From the NCBI RefSeq assembly GCF_027625935.1, contig NZ_CP115300.1, forward strand, positions 6,944,001 through 7,008,000: a stretch of DNA of 64,000 bases, given 5' to 3'. Under the pieces are notes generated by a model. The model searched no databases. It worked only from the letters and a program-made list of their open reading frames with translations, and was not told the DNA's origin. This document shows positions 3,301-40,224 of the stretch, piece after piece. The translations under genes and the position numbers were made by a program. This DNA comes from Streptomyces camelliae (GTDB lineage: Bacteria > Actinomycetota > Actinomycetes > Streptomycetales > Streptomycetaceae). Within the stretch, counting starts at the first letter, position 1, and every line of letters begins with the position of its first letter.

Positions 3301-5270
3301 TGACGGTCAGCCAGTTCCTGCCACCGGACTTCCAGTTCGACGTCGTCGTCTTCGACGAGGCCTCCCAGGTCCGCCCCAGCGACGCGGTCAACTGCATCTA
3401 CCGGGGCCGTACGCTGATCGTCGCCGGTGACGACAGGCAGTTGCCGCCGACCTCCTTCTTCGACTCCTCCGTCGACGACGACTCCGACGAGTACGCCGAG
3501 GACGTCCCGGACTCCTTCGAGTCCCTGCTGCAGGCCTGCAAGGCTGGCGCCATGCGGGAACTGCCGCTGCGCTGGCACTACCGCAGCCGCCACGAAAACC
3601 TGATCACCTTCAGCAACCACGAGTTCTACGACAACTCGATGATCACCTTCCCCGGGGCCCTCGACGAGGGCAACGACGTCGGCGTCGCCTTCCTGAAGAC
3701 CGACGGCGTCTACGACCGGGGACGGCGCCGGGACAACCGCGAGGAGGCGGAGTTCGTCGCCCGCCGGGTCCTGCACCACTTCGACACCCGCCCCGGCAAG
3801 AGCCTCGGCGTCGTCGCGCTCTCCCAGGCCCAGGCCTCCGCCATCGACCAGGCCGTGCAGCAGGCCCGGCTGGCCCGCCCCGACCTCGACCACTGCTTCA
3901 CCGAGGACCGCCTCGACGGATTCTTCGTCAAGAACCTGGAGTCGGTACAGGGCGACGAGCGCGATGTGATGATCATGTCCGTGGGCTACGGCCCCGACGA
4001 ACACGGCAGGGTGGGGCTCAACTTCGGCCCGATCAACAAGAGCGGAGGATGGCGCCGCCTCAACGTGGCCGTGACCCGCGCCCGGTACCGCATGGAGGTC
4101 GTGGCCTCCTTCCGCGCCGCCGGCCTGCCGGACAGCCCCAACGACAGCGTGCAGTACCTGAAGCGCTACCTCGACTACGCCGAGAACGGCCCGTCGATCC
4201 TCGCCCGGGACGTCGTGCAGACCGACGCCGAGCCGGAGAGTCCCTTCGAGGAGTCCGTCCTCGCGGTGCTGCGCGGCTGGGGCTACCAGGTGCAGCCCCA
4301 GGTCGGTGTCGCCGGCTACCGCATCGACCTGGGCGTACGCCACCCGGAGCTGCCCGGCGCCTTCGCCCTCGGCGTCGAGTGCGACGGGGCCATGTACCAC
4401 TCCGCCAAGGCCGCCCGGGACCGGGACCGGCTGCGCGAACAGGTCCTGAACGGGCTCGGCTGGCGGCTGCACCGCATCTGGGGCACCGACTGGTACCGAG
4501 GCCGGCCGGCCGCCGAACTGCGTCTGCGGGAAGCGGTCGAACAGGCCGTCGCCCAAGGTCCGCTCACCACGGCGCCGGCCACGCCGCGGCCCGCCGCGGG
4601 GGAGGAGGCGCACACCGCACCGCCCTCGGGCGGCGACGAGCACGGCCGCATCCCGCGGCAGACGAAGGTGGAGTACGAACGCGTGCCCGTGGACACCGGG
4701 ACCGCACGCGAGTGGAGCGTCCCTTACCGGACCAGTGCCGTCACGGTCGTGCCCCGCCATGAACTGCACACACCGGAGGCCCGGCCCGCGCTGCGCAAGG
4801 TACTGGCGCAGATCATCGACACCGAGGGCCCGATCCACGAGGACCTGCTGGTCCAGCGGGCACGCGAGGCCTGGGGCGTCGGCCGCGCCGGCAACCGCAT
4901 CCGGGACAACGTCCGAGAGGTGGCCCGCACCCTGGTCCGCTCCGGACAGGTCCGCGCGGACGACGCCTTCTACGACGTGACGGCCCGGGACGAGGTGAAG
5001 GCGCGGCACCCGGAGGACGGCACTCCACCCCGCAAGGTCCTCCACATCGCACCGGCCGAGCGGCACCGGGTGCTGTACGAGCTGGCCGCCGAATGCCCCG
5101 GCATGTCCGAGGACGAACTGATCAAGCAGGCCTGCGAGTTCTTCGGCTGGCGCCGCACCGGCAAGGACATCCGGGACCGCCTGGCCGCGGACCTCGCGGA
5201 ACTGCGCCGCCGGGGCGAGCTCGACGGCGGGCCGGACCGGGTCAGCGCCGTGCGCCGCGCCGGCTGGTGA
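369..5270 (+). CDS. DUF4011-type SF1 helicase with C-terminal REase-like and DUF3320 domains
   Basis: A 1633-residue cytoplasmic multidomain ATPase. The N-terminal 300 residues resemble DUF4011 (SLLDMGGRNRLLNF near residue 18). A Walker A loop GPPGTGKSQT lies at about 312-321, a long helical insert follows, then Walker B FDEAS (about 995-999), motif III GDDRQLPPTSF, and motif VI NVAVTRAR (about 1232-1239), all of the UPF1/Dna2-like SF1 helicase class. Residues about 1290-1380 form a small nuclease-like domain (PFEESV, RIDLGV, GVECDG) matching the MTES/Vsr-like restriction fold. The end carries a DUF3320-like winged-helix module, apparently duplicated. Start ATG has SD AGGAGGT 9 bases upstream. 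It is a lone gene, convergent with pgl. DUF4011 helicase-nucleases have been linked to phage defence in other bacteria; that role here is inference. Confidence 0.85.
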   Translation: MAQQPQTMMKTVLDGWRNSLLDMGGRNRLLNFRHTRTATLEIHSPGADALLADLARGWEFAPVPEKTQGVGLEKAGDTVDGSTGRPHRPGLVTQKTTQAALDSSLYQLRQKSGQMYNDYGLWVLWLGVGILDWREADAHESSAAPLLLVPVELRRDGNRSYRLHPAEDQERIHNPALAVKLDRLGVDWTPVTATDAADLPGVLAAARSVAAGLQGWAVEERVVLGLFASHREAMYQDLQQNEERILGHPLVRAVALGPDVGLPDDLIDFEPPDADRIDDIQLPEQTPLVLDADASQRQCIAAALDDRSFVMSGPPGTGKSQTITNLIAALMHAGRSVLFVSEKAAALDVVRNRLRGVGLGDFVMALHSGDTSKKAVATELARVLTTEARVTGAAEHELARARKLRADLSAYAAAMNETREPLGRSLHDVLGRLVLLEQSDTPGLPLGTENAKVVRTLTAGALQELAAAAQTVARAWRPAAEGESFPWRGLAGGSAHQVVAEAADALGALLTAAGRRPFAATQDEPRSVREVQQLVRGLRAGLAGRPAEQEDGGLPEDVTTQVAQLADLLGMPKPDRAETAYALCELADLTTDGHRPLHGWFDTDTLRRAHAAARDLSTALDAQAAARAAAEDVFGEQILTATDLPALVRRFAEEHRGLMARFSAQYKEDRRRVADLTRTGTWDKALAGRLEQALAWQQAAAEVTRLTGAHTALLGRYTPHTPDAYEELDRALATADRIETLGRDAQRRDLLADRLADQAEPDQLPALLAEQVRRSLGAWCAAAETRAERWNRAVTDLLDLFDTAGRTRLSPSLLGPLDQAEQAIDTLLADPEGPEVWRAHCDGLAVLARHGADGLVAGAAERGLDPRRLPDIVEQALLRAWADGVLATDPRLRSTRAEDLDARVADFQEADRRLIAAAGGAVTEACNKRRPRSFGGGGAAVVIREAEKKTRHMPVRELLGRAREVVQAVKPCFMMSPLTVSQFLPPDFQFDVVVFDEASQVRPSDAVNCIYRGRTLIVAGDDRQLPPTSFFDSSVDDDSDEYAEDVPDSFESLLQACKAGAMRELPLRWHYRSRHENLITFSNHEFYDNSMITFPGALDEGNDVGVAFLKTDGVYDRGRRRDNREEAEFVARRVLHHFDTRPGKSLGVVALSQAQASAIDQAVQQARLARPDLDHCFTEDRLDGFFVKNLESVQGDERDVMIMSVGYGPDEHGRVGLNFGPINKSGGWRRLNVAVTRARYRMEVVASFRAAGLPDSPNDSVQYLKRYLDYAENGPSILARDVVQTDAEPESPFEESVLAVLRGWGYQVQPQVGVAGYRIDLGVRHPELPGAFALGVECDGAMYHSAKAARDRDRLREQVLNGLGWRLHRIWGTDWYRGRPAAELRLREAVEQAVAQGPLTTAPATPRPAAGEEAHTAPPSGGDEHGRIPRQTKVEYERVPVDTGTAREWSVPYRTSAVTVVPRHELHTPEARPALRKVLAQIIDTEGPIHEDLLVQRAREAWGVGRAGNRIRDNVREVARTLVRSGQVRADDAFYDVTARDEVKARHPEDGTPPRKVLHIAPAERHRVLYELAAECPGMSEDELIKQACEFFGWRRTGKDIRDRLAADLAELRRRGELDGGPDRVSAVRRAGW

Positions 5271-38161: not shown

Positions 38162-38191
38162 TCGCCTGTCCCGCGGCCGTCCCCCTAGAGT
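38162..38191 (+). promoter_or_regulatory. Candidate promoter of the Y-RNA-like array
   Basis: TAGAGT (38186-38191) matches the Streptomyces TAGRRT -10 box. At 18 bases upstream TCGCCT (38162-38167) is a weak -35. Transcription would start at about 38198, a few bases before the first element (38204). Confidence 0.5.
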
Positions 38192-38203
38192 GATCCACGT
38201 CCA

Positions 38204-38342
38204 GGTGCGACAGGCAGGACCTACTTCCGCTCATAACGGGGAGGCCGCGGGTTCGAGTCCCGCCGCCGGCACAACAGGCCGGCGTAGCTCAGGGGTCAGA
38301 GCACCAACACGTCGGTTCCGCCGGCCTCGATCTCTGGACACC
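38204..38342 (+). ncRNA. Y-RNA-like element 1 with permuted CAU tRNA module
   Basis: 139 nt. A closing GGTG/CACC pair (38204-38207 with 38339-38342) and the Y stem GGCAGGACC (38213-38221) with GGTTCCGCC (38314-38322), one A·C mismatch, frame a complete tRNA in circularly permuted order: CCG-CTCATAA-CGGGG (38227-38241, CAU anticodon loop), variable AGGCC, T arm GCGGG-TTCGAGT-CCCGC (38247-38263), acceptor CGCCGGC (38264-38270), loop ACAACAG, acceptor 5' strand GCCGGCG (38278-38284), TA, D arm GCTC-AGGGGTCA-GAGC (38287-38302), A, CC. The break lies inside the anticodon stem between positions 28 and 29. This is the layout of YrlA-type Y RNAs whose partner protein, Ro60, is encoded next. No aminoacylation is claimed. 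Confidence 0.85.
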
Positions 38343-38363
38343 GAACAACTTCACGCACCTCCC

Positions 38364-38428
38364 GGTGCGCGGGCAGCGGTTACTTCGTTGTGGTCGAAAT
38401 CAAAACCGCCGCCGATCTGATCTCGGGA
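38364..38428 (+). ncRNA. Y-RNA-like element 2, minimal form
   Basis: About 65 nt. GGTGCG (38364-38369) is followed by the Y stem GGCAGCGGT (38372-38380) with ACCGCCGCC (38405-38413), the same single A·C mismatch as elements 1 and 3, the TACTTC box (38381-38386) and a small hairpin TTCG-TTGTGGT-CGAA (38384-38398) where the others have the tRNA-like module. Preceded by a CGCACC-TCCC-GGTGCG hairpin (38354-38369). A 7-nt complement outside it (38336-38342 with 38445-38451) could enclose it. The 3' boundary is approximate. Confidence 0.72.
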
Positions 38429-38451
38429 GGCGTGGCACATGGTGGGTGTCC

Positions 38452-38590
38452 GGTGCGCAGGCAGCGGATACTTCAGGACCTGGTCCGAAAGGGTGCGGGT
38501 TCGAATCCCGTCACCGGCCCACGGCCGGTGTGGCGGAACGGAAGACGCGCCAGGCAATAGTCCCGCCGCCGACTCTCGACCTCGGACACC
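38452..38590 (+). ncRNA. Y-RNA-like element 3 with permuted CAG (Leu) tRNA module
   Basis: 139 nt. Closing GGTG/CACC (38452-38455 with 38587-38590), Y stem GGCAGCGG (38460-38467) with CCGCCGCC (38563-38570) and the shared A·C mismatch. Inside: anticodon loop TTCAGGA (38472-38478, anticodon CAG), anticodon 3' strand CCTGG, variable region TCCGAAAGGGT, T arm GCGGG-TTCGAAT-CCCGT (38495-38511), acceptor CACCGGC (38512-38518), loop CCACG, acceptor 5' strand GCCGGTG (38524-38530), TG, D arm GCG-GAACGGAAGA-CGC (38533-38548), G, anticodon 5' strand CCAGG (38550-38554). Every tRNA-Leu part is present, with the break at positions 31/32. The discriminator is C rather than the A needed by leucyl-tRNA synthetase, favouring mimicry over charging. 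Confidence 0.87.
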
Positions 38591-38643
38591 CTCCTTCTGC
38601 CGCGCCTCCCTCCGAAACGGCAACGAATTCGGGGGAATTCACC

Positions 38644-40224
38644 ATGGCGCGATTCAACACGCGTGCCGCCAAGGCGCAGGTGAAGTCGGCGGTCACATCG
38701 ACCGGCCGGGTCCTGCGGACCTACGAGGGCGGCCGGGGCCAGGAGCGCGAGCCGCGCTCCGAGCTGTTCCTGCTCGCGGTGTCCCACTTCCTTTCGGGCA
38801 CCTTCTACGAGAACGCCCAGGACCGCGACGACCGCTTCACCCGCCTGGTCCGCGACCTCGCCGTCAGTGACCCGGACTGGACCGCCGGACTGCTGCGCTG
38901 GCTGCGCGGTGAGGGCAACATGCGGACGGCGTCGATCGTCGGCGCCGCCGAGTACGTGCACGCCCGGCTGACCGCCGGTGCGACCGACGGCCCCTCGAAC
39001 CGGCAGGTCGTGGACTGCGTGCTGCAGCGCCCGGACGAGCCGGGCGAGCTGCTCGCGTACTGGACGTCGACGTACGGCCGCGCGATCCCCAAGCCGGTCA
39101 AGCGGGGCGTCGCCGACGCCGTACGACGGCTGTACCACGCCAAGTCGCTGCTGAAGTACGACACCGCCGCCAAGGGCTACCGCTTCGGCGACGTCCTCAA
39201 CCTGGTGCACGCGGCGCCCGACCCGGACAAGCCGTGGCAGGGCGAGCTGTTCCGGTACGCGCTCGACCGCCGGCACAACCCGGACACGGCCGTGCCGCCC
39301 GCGTCGCTGCCGGTGCTCACCGCGCACCGCGAGCTGATGGCGCTGCCCGTGGCCGAGCGGCGCCGGGTCGTCACGTCGGAGGGTGGCGCCGAGCGGCTGG
39401 CGGCGGCCGGGATCACCTGGGAGGCGCTGGCCGGCTGGCTCCAGGGCCCGATGGACAAGGCGGCCTGGGAGGCGGTCATCCCGTCGATGGCTGCGATGTC
39501 GCTCGTTCGAAACCTGAGGAATTTCGACGAGGCGGGTGTCTCGGACGAGGTCGCCGCGCGGGTCGCGGCACGGATCAGCGACCCGGCGGAGGTCGCGCGC
39601 TCACGGCAGTTCCCCTTCCGGTACCTCGCCGCGTACCAGCACGCACCATCGCTGCGCTGGTCGTACCCGCTGGAGCAGGCGCTCGGCCATTCGCTGGCCA
39701 ACGTGCCCGCGCTGCCGGGCCGGACGCTGGTGCTCGTCGACCGGTCGGGCTCGATGTTCTGGTCGCGGGTCTCCGAGCGGTCCCAGCTCACCCGGGCCGA
39801 CGCGGCGGCGGTCTTCGGCACGGCGCTCGCGCTGCGGGCGGCGGACGCCGACCTGGTGGAGTTCGGTACGACGAGCAACGCGGTGACGTTCCGCAAGGGC
39901 GAGTCGGTCCTGAAGATCCTGGACCGCTTCGGCGACCTGGGCGGCACCGACACGACCGACGCGGTGCGCCGGCACTACAAGAAGCACGACCGGGTGCTGA
40001 TCGTCACCGACGAGCAGTACACCCCGAACCGCCACGGCGATCCGACCGTCCAGGTCCCGGCCCACGTGCCCGTCTACACCTGGAACCTGGAGGGCTACCG
40101 GGCGGGCCACGGCCCGTCGGGCACGGGCAACCGGCACACCTTCGGCGGCCTGTCGGACGCGGCTTTCCGGATGGTGTCCTTGCTTGAGGCCGCTGGGGAG
40201 GCCGACTGGCCGTGGAGCGCCTGA
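38644..40224 (+). CDS. rsr: Ro60/Rsr-family TROVE-domain RNA-binding protein
   Basis: 526 residues from ATG (MARFNTRAAKAQVKSAV) after CGGGGGAATTCACC. The N-terminal two thirds is the TROVE HEAT-repeat ring that binds misfolded RNA and Y RNA (SELFLLAVSHFLSGTFYENAQDRDDRF, LLRWLRGEGNMRTASIVGAAEYVHARL, YWTSTYGRAIPKPVKRGVADAV). The C-terminal third is a von Willebrand A domain with an intact MIDAS motif DRSGS (D366, S368, S370) and GGTDTTDA. Cytoplasmic ring-shaped RNP protein; bacterial relatives scaffold Y RNA with nucleases or assist RNA repair. The three Y-RNA-like elements directly upstream lie in its 5' region. No rtcB or exonuclease gene adjoins it in this window. Confidence 0.93.
   Translation: MARFNTRAAKAQVKSAVTSTGRVLRTYEGGRGQEREPRSELFLLAVSHFLSGTFYENAQDRDDRFTRLVRDLAVSDPDWTAGLLRWLRGEGNMRTASIVGAAEYVHARLTAGATDGPSNRQVVDCVLQRPDEPGELLAYWTSTYGRAIPKPVKRGVADAVRRLYHAKSLLKYDTAAKGYRFGDVLNLVHAAPDPDKPWQGELFRYALDRRHNPDTAVPPASLPVLTAHRELMALPVAERRRVVTSEGGAERLAAAGITWEALAGWLQGPMDKAAWEAVIPSMAAMSLVRNLRNFDEAGVSDEVAARVAARISDPAEVARSRQFPFRYLAAYQHAPSLRWSYPLEQALGHSLANVPALPGRTLVLVDRSGSMFWSRVSERSQLTRADAAAVFGTALALRAADADLVEFGTTSNAVTFRKGESVLKILDRFGDLGGTDTTDAVRRHYKKHDRVLIVTDEQYTPNRHGDPTVQVPAHVPVYTWNLEGYRAGHGPSGTGNRHTFGGLSDAAFRMVSLLEAAGEADWPWSA

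Follow-up and report, generated by a model that had tools for sequence, protein, structure and literature searches.

The stretch of Streptomyces camelliae DNA analysed here, 64 kb in length and referred to as the window, carries a Ro60/Rsr gene (TROVE; PF05731 match, E 7.2e-12) which is preceded by an array of three RNA elements. A whole-genome profile search reveals this gene as the single TROVE match in the 9.6-Mb genome of S. camelliae, and its closest named relatives, among the best 80 of 417, belong to Streptomyces. A PhoX phosphatase gene is located upstream of the array on the same strand, and an MFS transporter gene downstream of the Ro gene on the opposite strand. The original prediction placed three Y-RNA-like elements 54 bases before a TROVE gene, and this spacing is correct, since the gene starts at 38644, 54 bases after element 3. 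A near-palindromic GAATTCGGGGGAATTC at 38625-38640, just 5' of the Ro start codon, includes the likely ribosome-binding site of the Ro gene and recurs at four further loci (L008, L050, L054, L066). The features of the locus are as follows.

38186-38191, forward strand: -10-like box TAGAGT, probable single promoter of the array, assigned from the placement of TANNRT boxes in relatives
38198-38340, forward strand: element 1, putative Y RNA with a head equivalent to a full tRNA in circularly permuted order, anticodon arm intact
38199-38204, forward strand: 5' strand of the outer stem of element 1, pairing with 38334-38339; 100% paired in 54 sequences, five of six pairs invariant
38213-38221, forward strand: 5' strand of the inner Y stem of element 1, with the A of the A·C mismatch, pairing with 38314-38322; two-sided changes in five of nine pairs
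38225-38241, forward strand: anticodon arm of element 1, stem UUCCG/CGGGG, loop CUCAUAA at 38230-38236, anticodon CAU
38242-38246, forward strand: variable loop of element 1 (nt 44-48), 5 nt
38247-38263, forward strand: T arm of element 1, from the covariation fold
38264-38284, forward strand: acceptor hairpin of element 1, with 3' strand (38264-38270), loop and 5' strand (38278-38284) in this order
38287-38302, forward strand: D arm of element 1; its stem is invariant in 54 sequences, which is neutral as to pairing
38358-38430, forward strand: element 2, putative minimal Y RNA, a Ro-type stem without tRNA-like domain
38446-38589, forward strand: element 3, putative Y RNA of YrlA topology with a class-II tRNA-Leu-like head
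38644-40224, forward strand: Ro60/Rsr (TROVE) gene, PF05731

The three elements share the box GGTGCG-N2/3-GGCAG, as had been proposed. Exactly three copies are found in the window (38204, 38364, 38452), while shuffled sequence contains a mean of 0.48 per whole window and reached three copies in 1 of 100 shuffles. The second common motif, TACTTC, is indeed present in each element (38222, 38381, 38469), but with 23 copies in the window, where 4 are expected, it is not evidence by itself. Likewise, the A·C mismatch described for the inner stem occurs in all three window elements (38216·38319 in element 1) and is not fixed in relatives. A strict script detected it in 39 of 53 element 1 rows (10 unparsed, two with A·A, two with an unparsed partner), in 38 of 67 element 3 rows (11 unparsed) and in only 11 of 80 element 2 rows. 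Its rarity among the latter suggests a tolerated weak point, and the mismatch was rejected as a fixed signature. Folding of the single sequences gave z values of -0.71, -1.51 and -2.14, which is weak evidence and too weak for a deciding test; the case rests on comparison.

Concerning known RNA families, no Rfam match was obtained anywhere in the window at gathering thresholds. Below the cut-off, the YrlA family (RF02553) matched element 1 with 31.1 bits (38240-38305) and element 3 with 24.2 bits (38461-38575), and none of the three elements reached its gathering cut-off of 69 bits. Element 2 gave no YrlA match in this sub-threshold search. Other actinomycete Ro loci show YrlA matches of 25-54 bits.

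Recurrence was assessed in the genus. The Ro protein search matched 108 of 199 Streptomyces genomes, the last rows being fragments. Of 125 matches listed, 90 loci were read over at most 900 bases upstream of the gene, 30 from the search and 60 taken by place; one of them, L001, is a duplicate of the window. All 90 Ro genes have at least one box element upstream. The complete set of elements 1, 2 and 3 is present at 39 loci, elements 2 and 3 at 23, element 2 only at 13, elements 1 and 2 at eight, elements 1 and 3 at five and element 1 only at two. Element 1 was thus not found at 36 of the 90 loci and looks dispensable. By a lenient scan, three or more elements are present at 39 of these 90 loci and at 11 of 30 loci of the class. 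Together with the pair yrlB and yrlA of Salmonella, mentioned in a passage of PMC7790460, this shows that several Y RNAs at one Ro locus have precedents, the original prediction having known of no array with three different partners. Eight divergent Ro genes (L078-L082, L084-L086; 66-73% identical), six of which share a genome with a copy of the first type, apparently have one stem-only element upstream, automatic element extraction being faulty at several such loci. No start codon was found at the aligned position of these eight genes.

Within the 22 nt that precede the first element, a TANNRT box is found at 67 of the 90 Ro loci; later elements have a box so placed in 2 of 119 cases. This placement, almost exclusively before the first element, suggests that one promoter serves the array and the Ro gene.

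Element 1 is, judged by comparison of sequences, a complete circularly permuted tRNA which retains its anticodon arm. The fold of the 54 aligned sequences begins with the outer and inner stems, continues through the anticodon arm, the variable loop and the T arm to the acceptor hairpin and the D arm, and returns via the stems. In this fold 97.3% of cells are paired and 14 of 36 pairs show two-sided changes, which was reached by 0 of 500 shuffles; slid frames gave 33-46% paired cells in every frame. RNAalifold, unprompted, returned identical helices. The acceptor hairpin is 99.7% paired with two-sided changes in four of seven pairs. Model R1, in which the window row itself is included, scores element 1 at 157 bits.

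The 5-bp anticodon helix is 99.6% paired and has nine doubly changed cells, both values being reached by 0 of 500 shuffles, and slid frames of this helix are 38-64% paired. Other measures are less telling for Streptomyces: only two of the five anticodon-stem pairs show a two-sided change, a number reached by 44 of 500 shuffles, and the further pair types in this stem are matched by 295 of 500. Two G·U pairs of the stem are nearly invariant. A topology test gave 99.3% paired cells for the hairpin (all five pairs in 52 of 54 copies) versus 74.1% for a stem split as in element 3 (11 of 54), so that the split stem is the less supported arrangement. Nevertheless it is feasible in many copies, and a second, split-stem conformer of element 1 could exist.

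The tRNA core is retained as well. U8, A9, A14, G46, T54, T55, C56 and A58 are present in 54 of 54 copies, as is GG in the D loop, and G15 and C48 in 53; the lone row with A15 (L089) has U48 as well. ARAGORN identifies the un-permuted element 1, supplemented with one placeholder base and CCA ends, as tRNA-Met(CAU). Among 51 distinct own tRNA sequences from 40 genome stretches, the five nearest to element 1 are Thr(CGU), Arg(CCU), Arg(UCU), Met(CAU) and Asn(GUU), all of which decode A-initial codons. In the window as it stands, ARAGORN reports a tRNA-Met(CAU) at 38201-38272, lying inside element 1. An ordinary tRNA gene was rejected as an identity for element 1 on account of the arm order anticodon-T-acceptor-D and an RF00005 score of 17.8 bits against a cut-off of 29; the element is absent from the 70 RF00005 matches of the genome.

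Element 3, by the same kind of comparison, is a tRNA-like head permuted at the anticodon arm, that is, in the known YrlA topology. Its anticodon stem is split (38479-38483 with 38550-38554), and the topology test reversed the result of element 1, with 62.5% paired cells for the hairpin (4 of 65 complete) versus 96.9% for the split stem (55 of 65), the search for the split form being more lenient. Model R1 detects both topologies and scores element 3 at 67 bits. The element 3 set omits mis-extracted or odd rows (L037, L078, L080, L082, L084, L086), and four more are unclassified. Among 43 copies of class-I type, two-sided changes occur in 20 of 39 pairs, including all five pairs of the split anticodon stem. 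A Leu-type D arm is found in 20 of 67 copies, window included, 18 of them with an extra variable arm (by eye), and 7 of 37 pairs in these 20 relatives show two-sided changes. The nearest own tRNA of un-permuted element 3 is tRNA-Leu(CAG), and ARAGORN calls likewise (placeholder base and CCA added).

Element 2 was predicted to be a minimal partner, and it is a stem without T, acceptor or D arm. Its common fold, derived from 74 of 82 rows, is 98.7% paired with two-sided changes in 3 of 14 pairs. The stem is possibly closed by a small hairpin at TTC, which a lenient per-sequence test without control allows in 72 of 82 rows and which is absent from the consensus fold of the 74 rows. A miniature anticodon arm was considered for element 2 and rejected: many rows offer UUCU/AGAA or UUCUU/AAGAA stems with 7-nt loops, but loop sizes vary.

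The long 5'/3' stem of the kind predicted to bind Ro, consisting of outer and inner stems, is kept and covaries in all three elements, and the permuted head of T arm, acceptor hairpin and D arm is present in elements 1 and 3. The stems are thus retained in orthologous loci, as the original prediction implied. The weak YrlA matches, the strong covariation and the recurrence upstream of Ro support its assignment of the elements as Y RNA partners of the Ro gene, with predicted binding. The best reading is that all three are bacterial Y RNAs, elements 1 and 3 of the YrlA kind, element 2 a Y RNA but not a YrlA. What had been overlooked is the unusual part, namely a whole anticodon arm in element 1, a split, class-II tRNA-Leu-like mimic in element 3 and the want of any tRNA-like domain in element 2.

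Y RNAs of the YrlA kind, two of them at one locus and candidate phage-borne Y RNAs are already in print, according to passages in PMC7790460, PMC8394870 and PMC12282133. The Salmonella operon rsr-yrlBA-rtcBA encodes the two Y RNAs yrlB and yrlA (passage in PMC7790460). As stated in passages of PMC8394870 and PMC11472068, respectively, YrlA resembles the D, T and acceptor arms of tRNA and is a substrate of DusA and TruB, and it is circularly permuted relative to tRNA. The elements resemble YrlA (RF02553; Salmonella structure 6CU1) in their linkage to Ro60, the terminal stem and the permuted succession of T arm, closed acceptor hairpin and D arm, even though their scores are far under the Rfam cut-off. 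Element 3 shares with YrlA the topology and the position of the anticodon stem as connector. Element 1, in contrast, has a full anticodon arm in addition and a different point of permutation; the consensus of the RF02553 alignment has no room for such an arm. In the published text searched (titles, abstract openings and passages, a scope outside which the main Y RNA papers lie), an anticodon arm in a Y RNA was not found. Element 2 may be compared with headless Y RNAs, possibly Salmonella YrlB, as a stem-only RNA beside tRNA-like ones. Permuted tRNA genes and permuted tmRNA carry the 3' half before the 5' half. Element 1 is alike in the order of the halves, but its ends are locked in the Y stem and its acceptor end is a closed loop.

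The anticodon loop of element 1 follows a rule. In 54 loops C32 and U33 are invariant, U36 is found in 52, A37 in 49 and A38 in 53, while positions 34 and 35 are variable; all five t6A-type positions (C32, U33, U36, A37, A38) are present in 47 copies, and the window loop CUCAUAA fits. Changes were counted on one quick tree of 81 Ro genes, which comprises the Ro gene of the window and the best 80 among 417 named relatives; the loop is known for 60 of these. Positions 32 to 38 require a minimum of 0, 0, 17, 12, 1, 7 and 1 changes, and the whole anticodon has changed at least 24 times; these minimum counts are without a shuffled-label control. According to a passage in PMC9654439, U36A37A38 is the universal t6A determinant, C32 is a determinant for KEOPS and C33 is an anti-determinant of bacterial enzymes. 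The conserved positions sit close to these determinants of t6A37, A37 being the least strictly kept. On this basis element 1 is predicted to carry t6A37. The absence of A37 from 5 of 54 copies and its seven changes on the tree make the element ill-suited to an essential t6A. As positions 34 and 35 drift while C32, U33, U36, A38 and mostly A37 stay, a reader likely senses a t6A-type loop and not one anticodon. The loop therefore looks read, though for no particular codon.

The elements extend beyond Streptomyces. In a class-wide draw of 296 genomes, 37 contain TROVE. Of 18 Ro loci from other genera, R1 matches 15 at E 2.3e-8 or better. At L147 the best R1 match lies inside an ordinary tRNA (E 0.0045) and the next has E 0.03; L142 and L163 gave no R1 match at E up to 0.1. 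A strict scan found the anticodon arm at 7 of these 18 loci and, among the 80 best of 295 viral contigs with Ro, on 40. In addition, of 20 stretches picked from R1 matches, 12 show no Ro match in their 8 kb and contain orphan copies, with anticodons that include GUC, CUC and GCA and with D arms which we take, by eye, to be Glu-like. In the orphan stretches L122-L128, L130, L131, L135, L136 and L139 the elements lie mid-stretch, near 4000-4140; most orphan-type elements have an anticodon arm, several of them followed by GC-rich hairpins. The first element of L141 belongs here as well, since its 8-kb stretch shows no Ro match, although a Ro gene begins roughly 2.3 kb beyond.

Among 18 named phage or plasmid records around Ro, the strict scan finds the arm in five. 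In Gordonia phage VanLee it lies inside an annotated tRNA-Arg (L374:1204-1275), and one copy in Xanthomonas phage 10KY502B lies inside an annotated tRNA-Thr (L380:1205-1272); the further carriers are a Rhodococcus rhodochrous plasmid, Xanthomonas phage Olaya and Caulobacter phage CcrPW. For Streptomyces phages Alone3 and BRock there is an R1 match together with a hairpin that resembles the arm on visual inspection only; the match in Alone3 overlies an annotated tRNA-Ser (L373:1274-1347). The public tRNA annotation is thus probably wrong at the VanLee and 10KY502B elements and, as a weaker case, at that of Alone3; the abstract of PMC8320454 reports VanLee with one tRNA. In Streptomyces phages BRock and Alone3 and in Arthrobacter phage Atuin (L372, L373, L375) the Ro gene lies among tRNA genes. 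The Ro locus of a Deinococcus gobiensis plasmid shows an R1 match (L381) without a regular 7-nt anticodon loop, and the rtcR-Ro-RtcB locus of Rhizobium phaseoli has a classical YrlA (96.5 bits) and a less regular element. Rhizobium phage RHph_Y65 has R1 matches, the best at 4.9e-9. No R1 match was obtained at E up to 1 for the loci of a crAss-like phage, Pseudomonas and Thermus oshimai, or at E up to 0.1 for Allomeiothermus.

An alignment-free scan for a 5-bp stem with a 7-nt loop between TAC and the T arm, leaving the loop sequence free, yielded 135 unique cores with 31 distinct stems. Unique cores were counted since the locus groups overlap in species; related sequences remain among the 135, so that a p-value for the association of positions 36 and 37 is no strict probability. 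At least four cores of the Streptomyces sets (L036, L103, L229, L288) resemble element 3 copies and seem to have passed the scan by chance. Full 5/5 stems were found in 116 unique cores in frame, versus 0-16 in nine slid frames. U33 is present in 124 of the 135 cores and A38 in 130, A34 in only 5 and A35 in 29. In tRNA, position 36 predicts position 37. The same holds in the cores: G36 is accompanied by G37 in 10 of 11, and U36, C36 or A36 by A37 in 107 of 124. In the 79 cores outside the Streptomyces Ro sets, which form four groups and include Streptomyces orphan copies and some genus loci of the class draw, U36 goes with A37 in 39 of 40 and C36 with A37 in 23 of 24; A37 is less well kept in the Streptomyces sets than in the cores of other groups. 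C36 (24) or G36 (10) in many of these 79 cores means that these are not t6A types.

Weak best R1 matches near 3e-9 in many Streptomyces genomes were taken as tandem tRNA genes and not counted as Y RNAs. In the one genome checked, S. camelliae itself, a tandem tRNA-Asn pair (L172:44-122) matches R1 positions 27-105 with 61 bits. Tandem tRNA genes imitate the permuted order, the 3' half of one being followed by the 5' half of the next, and they are a possible origin of permuted tRNA-like heads.

From the covarying structures, the loop rule, the recurrence and the linkage to Ro, we consider it probable that the three elements are Y RNAs of this Ro60 and that their heads serve as handles for tRNA-reading enzymes, in element 1 including readers of the anticodon loop. 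Co-transcription, Ro binding, modification and an enzyme partner are what we infer from them. The array would be transcribed as one RNA from the promoter 5' of element 1 and then processed. Ro60 would hold the Ro-binding-type stem common to the three RNAs, whose far ends differ. Element 1 would present an entire tRNA whose permutation point lies between the D arm and the anticodon arm, element 3 a tRNA-Leu-like head permuted at the anticodon arm, and element 2 almost nothing, so that it may keep Ro60 gated without a partner. The head would act as an interchangeable handle that docks tRNA-reading enzymes, with element 1 also open to anticodon-loop readers. Passages in PMC4726728 and PMC8394870 describe a Y RNA that tethers Rsr to PNPase and gates substrates; the Deinococcus Y RNA in the RYPER complex with PNPase serves as the model for such a tether between Ro60 and a partner. 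The anticodon loop would most likely be read by modification enzymes, and anticodon nucleases would be the bolder option.

That bolder option leads to an explanation which we regard as unlikely, though it is the strongest of the alternatives: the anticodon arm of element 1 could be a decoy or fuse, offered to toxins or defence nucleases that cleave tRNA anticodon loops. A cut would create a new 3' end beside Ro60, a binder of free 3' ends (PMC6340977, in a passage, reports that Ro60 binds misfolded RNAs whose 3' ends are single-stranded), and would spare tRNAs or report their damage. The frequent changes at positions 34 and 35 within a fixed frame fit this, as do the different anticodons across loci and orphan copies, although the drift at 34 and 35 could also be neutral. 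Ro and Y RNA elements among the tRNA genes of phages BRock and Alone3 point the same way, and passages elsewhere argue that phage tRNAs resist host anticodon nucleases (PMC10264068), raise a competitive-inhibitor role for Salmonella YrlA (PMC7790460) and cite tRNA cleavage in S. coelicolor (in PMC8628891). However, fragments of Salmonella YrlA were not detected according to PMC7790460 (passage), which is not decisive, since the YrlA head is described without an anticodon arm.

Somewhat more doubtful is a purely structural role, in which the arm stabilises the tRNA-like fold for readers of the D and T arms and the loop is a relic of tRNA descent. Both DusA and TruB already accept YrlA, which is described with D, T and acceptor arms only (PMC8394870, passage), and element 3 manages without an anticodon arm. 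Yet a relic is hardly expected to retain U33, U36 and A38 over 24 or more anticodon changes, or to obey the rule for positions 36 and 37 across phages and other actinomycetes. We think it improbable that the array acts in cis, as a leader controlling Ro synthesis, instead of giving separate RNAs: a common transcript is likely in view of the single promoter-like box and the closeness of the Ro start, but elements are also found in the 12 of 20 stretches without a Ro match in 8 kb. Processing of element 1 into a working tRNA is very improbable despite its passing as tRNA-Met(CAU) when un-permuted and the ARAGORN call at 38201-38272, for that call ignores the covarying acceptor hairpin, UUCG-type acceptor loops in relatives (L061, L070, L072, L073, L076) leave no 3' CCA end, the anticodon has shifted from one amino acid to another and the long paired Y stem would need removal.

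Beyond the reading of the three elements as Y RNAs with enzyme handles, we tentatively raise a wider one, which we hold at somewhat less than even chances: bacteria and their phages would harbour an overlooked group of Y RNAs, each of them an entire permuted tRNA whose anticodon loop is of the working type. Judged by anticodon, they would imitate different tRNA families, in sets of ANN-decoding, Asp, Glu, Pro and Leu types. They would be handles or baits of Ro60 for anticodon-loop enzymes, either modification enzymes or, more boldly, anticodon nucleases from toxins and phage defence, some of these Y RNAs being annotated as tRNAs.

As to what bacterial Ro60 does with Y RNAs, a full anticodon loop that obeys the modification rules of tRNA gives a direct, testable clue to the partner, namely a reader of anticodon loops. 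If this is true, Ro60 would be linked to tRNA modification or tRNA damage, and the chromosomal loci would be tied to the phage loci that carry Ro among tRNA genes. Some of the tRNAs annotated beside phage Ro genes, for example in VanLee, would be Y RNAs. As far as sequence comparison can indicate, Ro60 may be guided by anticodon-bearing tRNA impostors.
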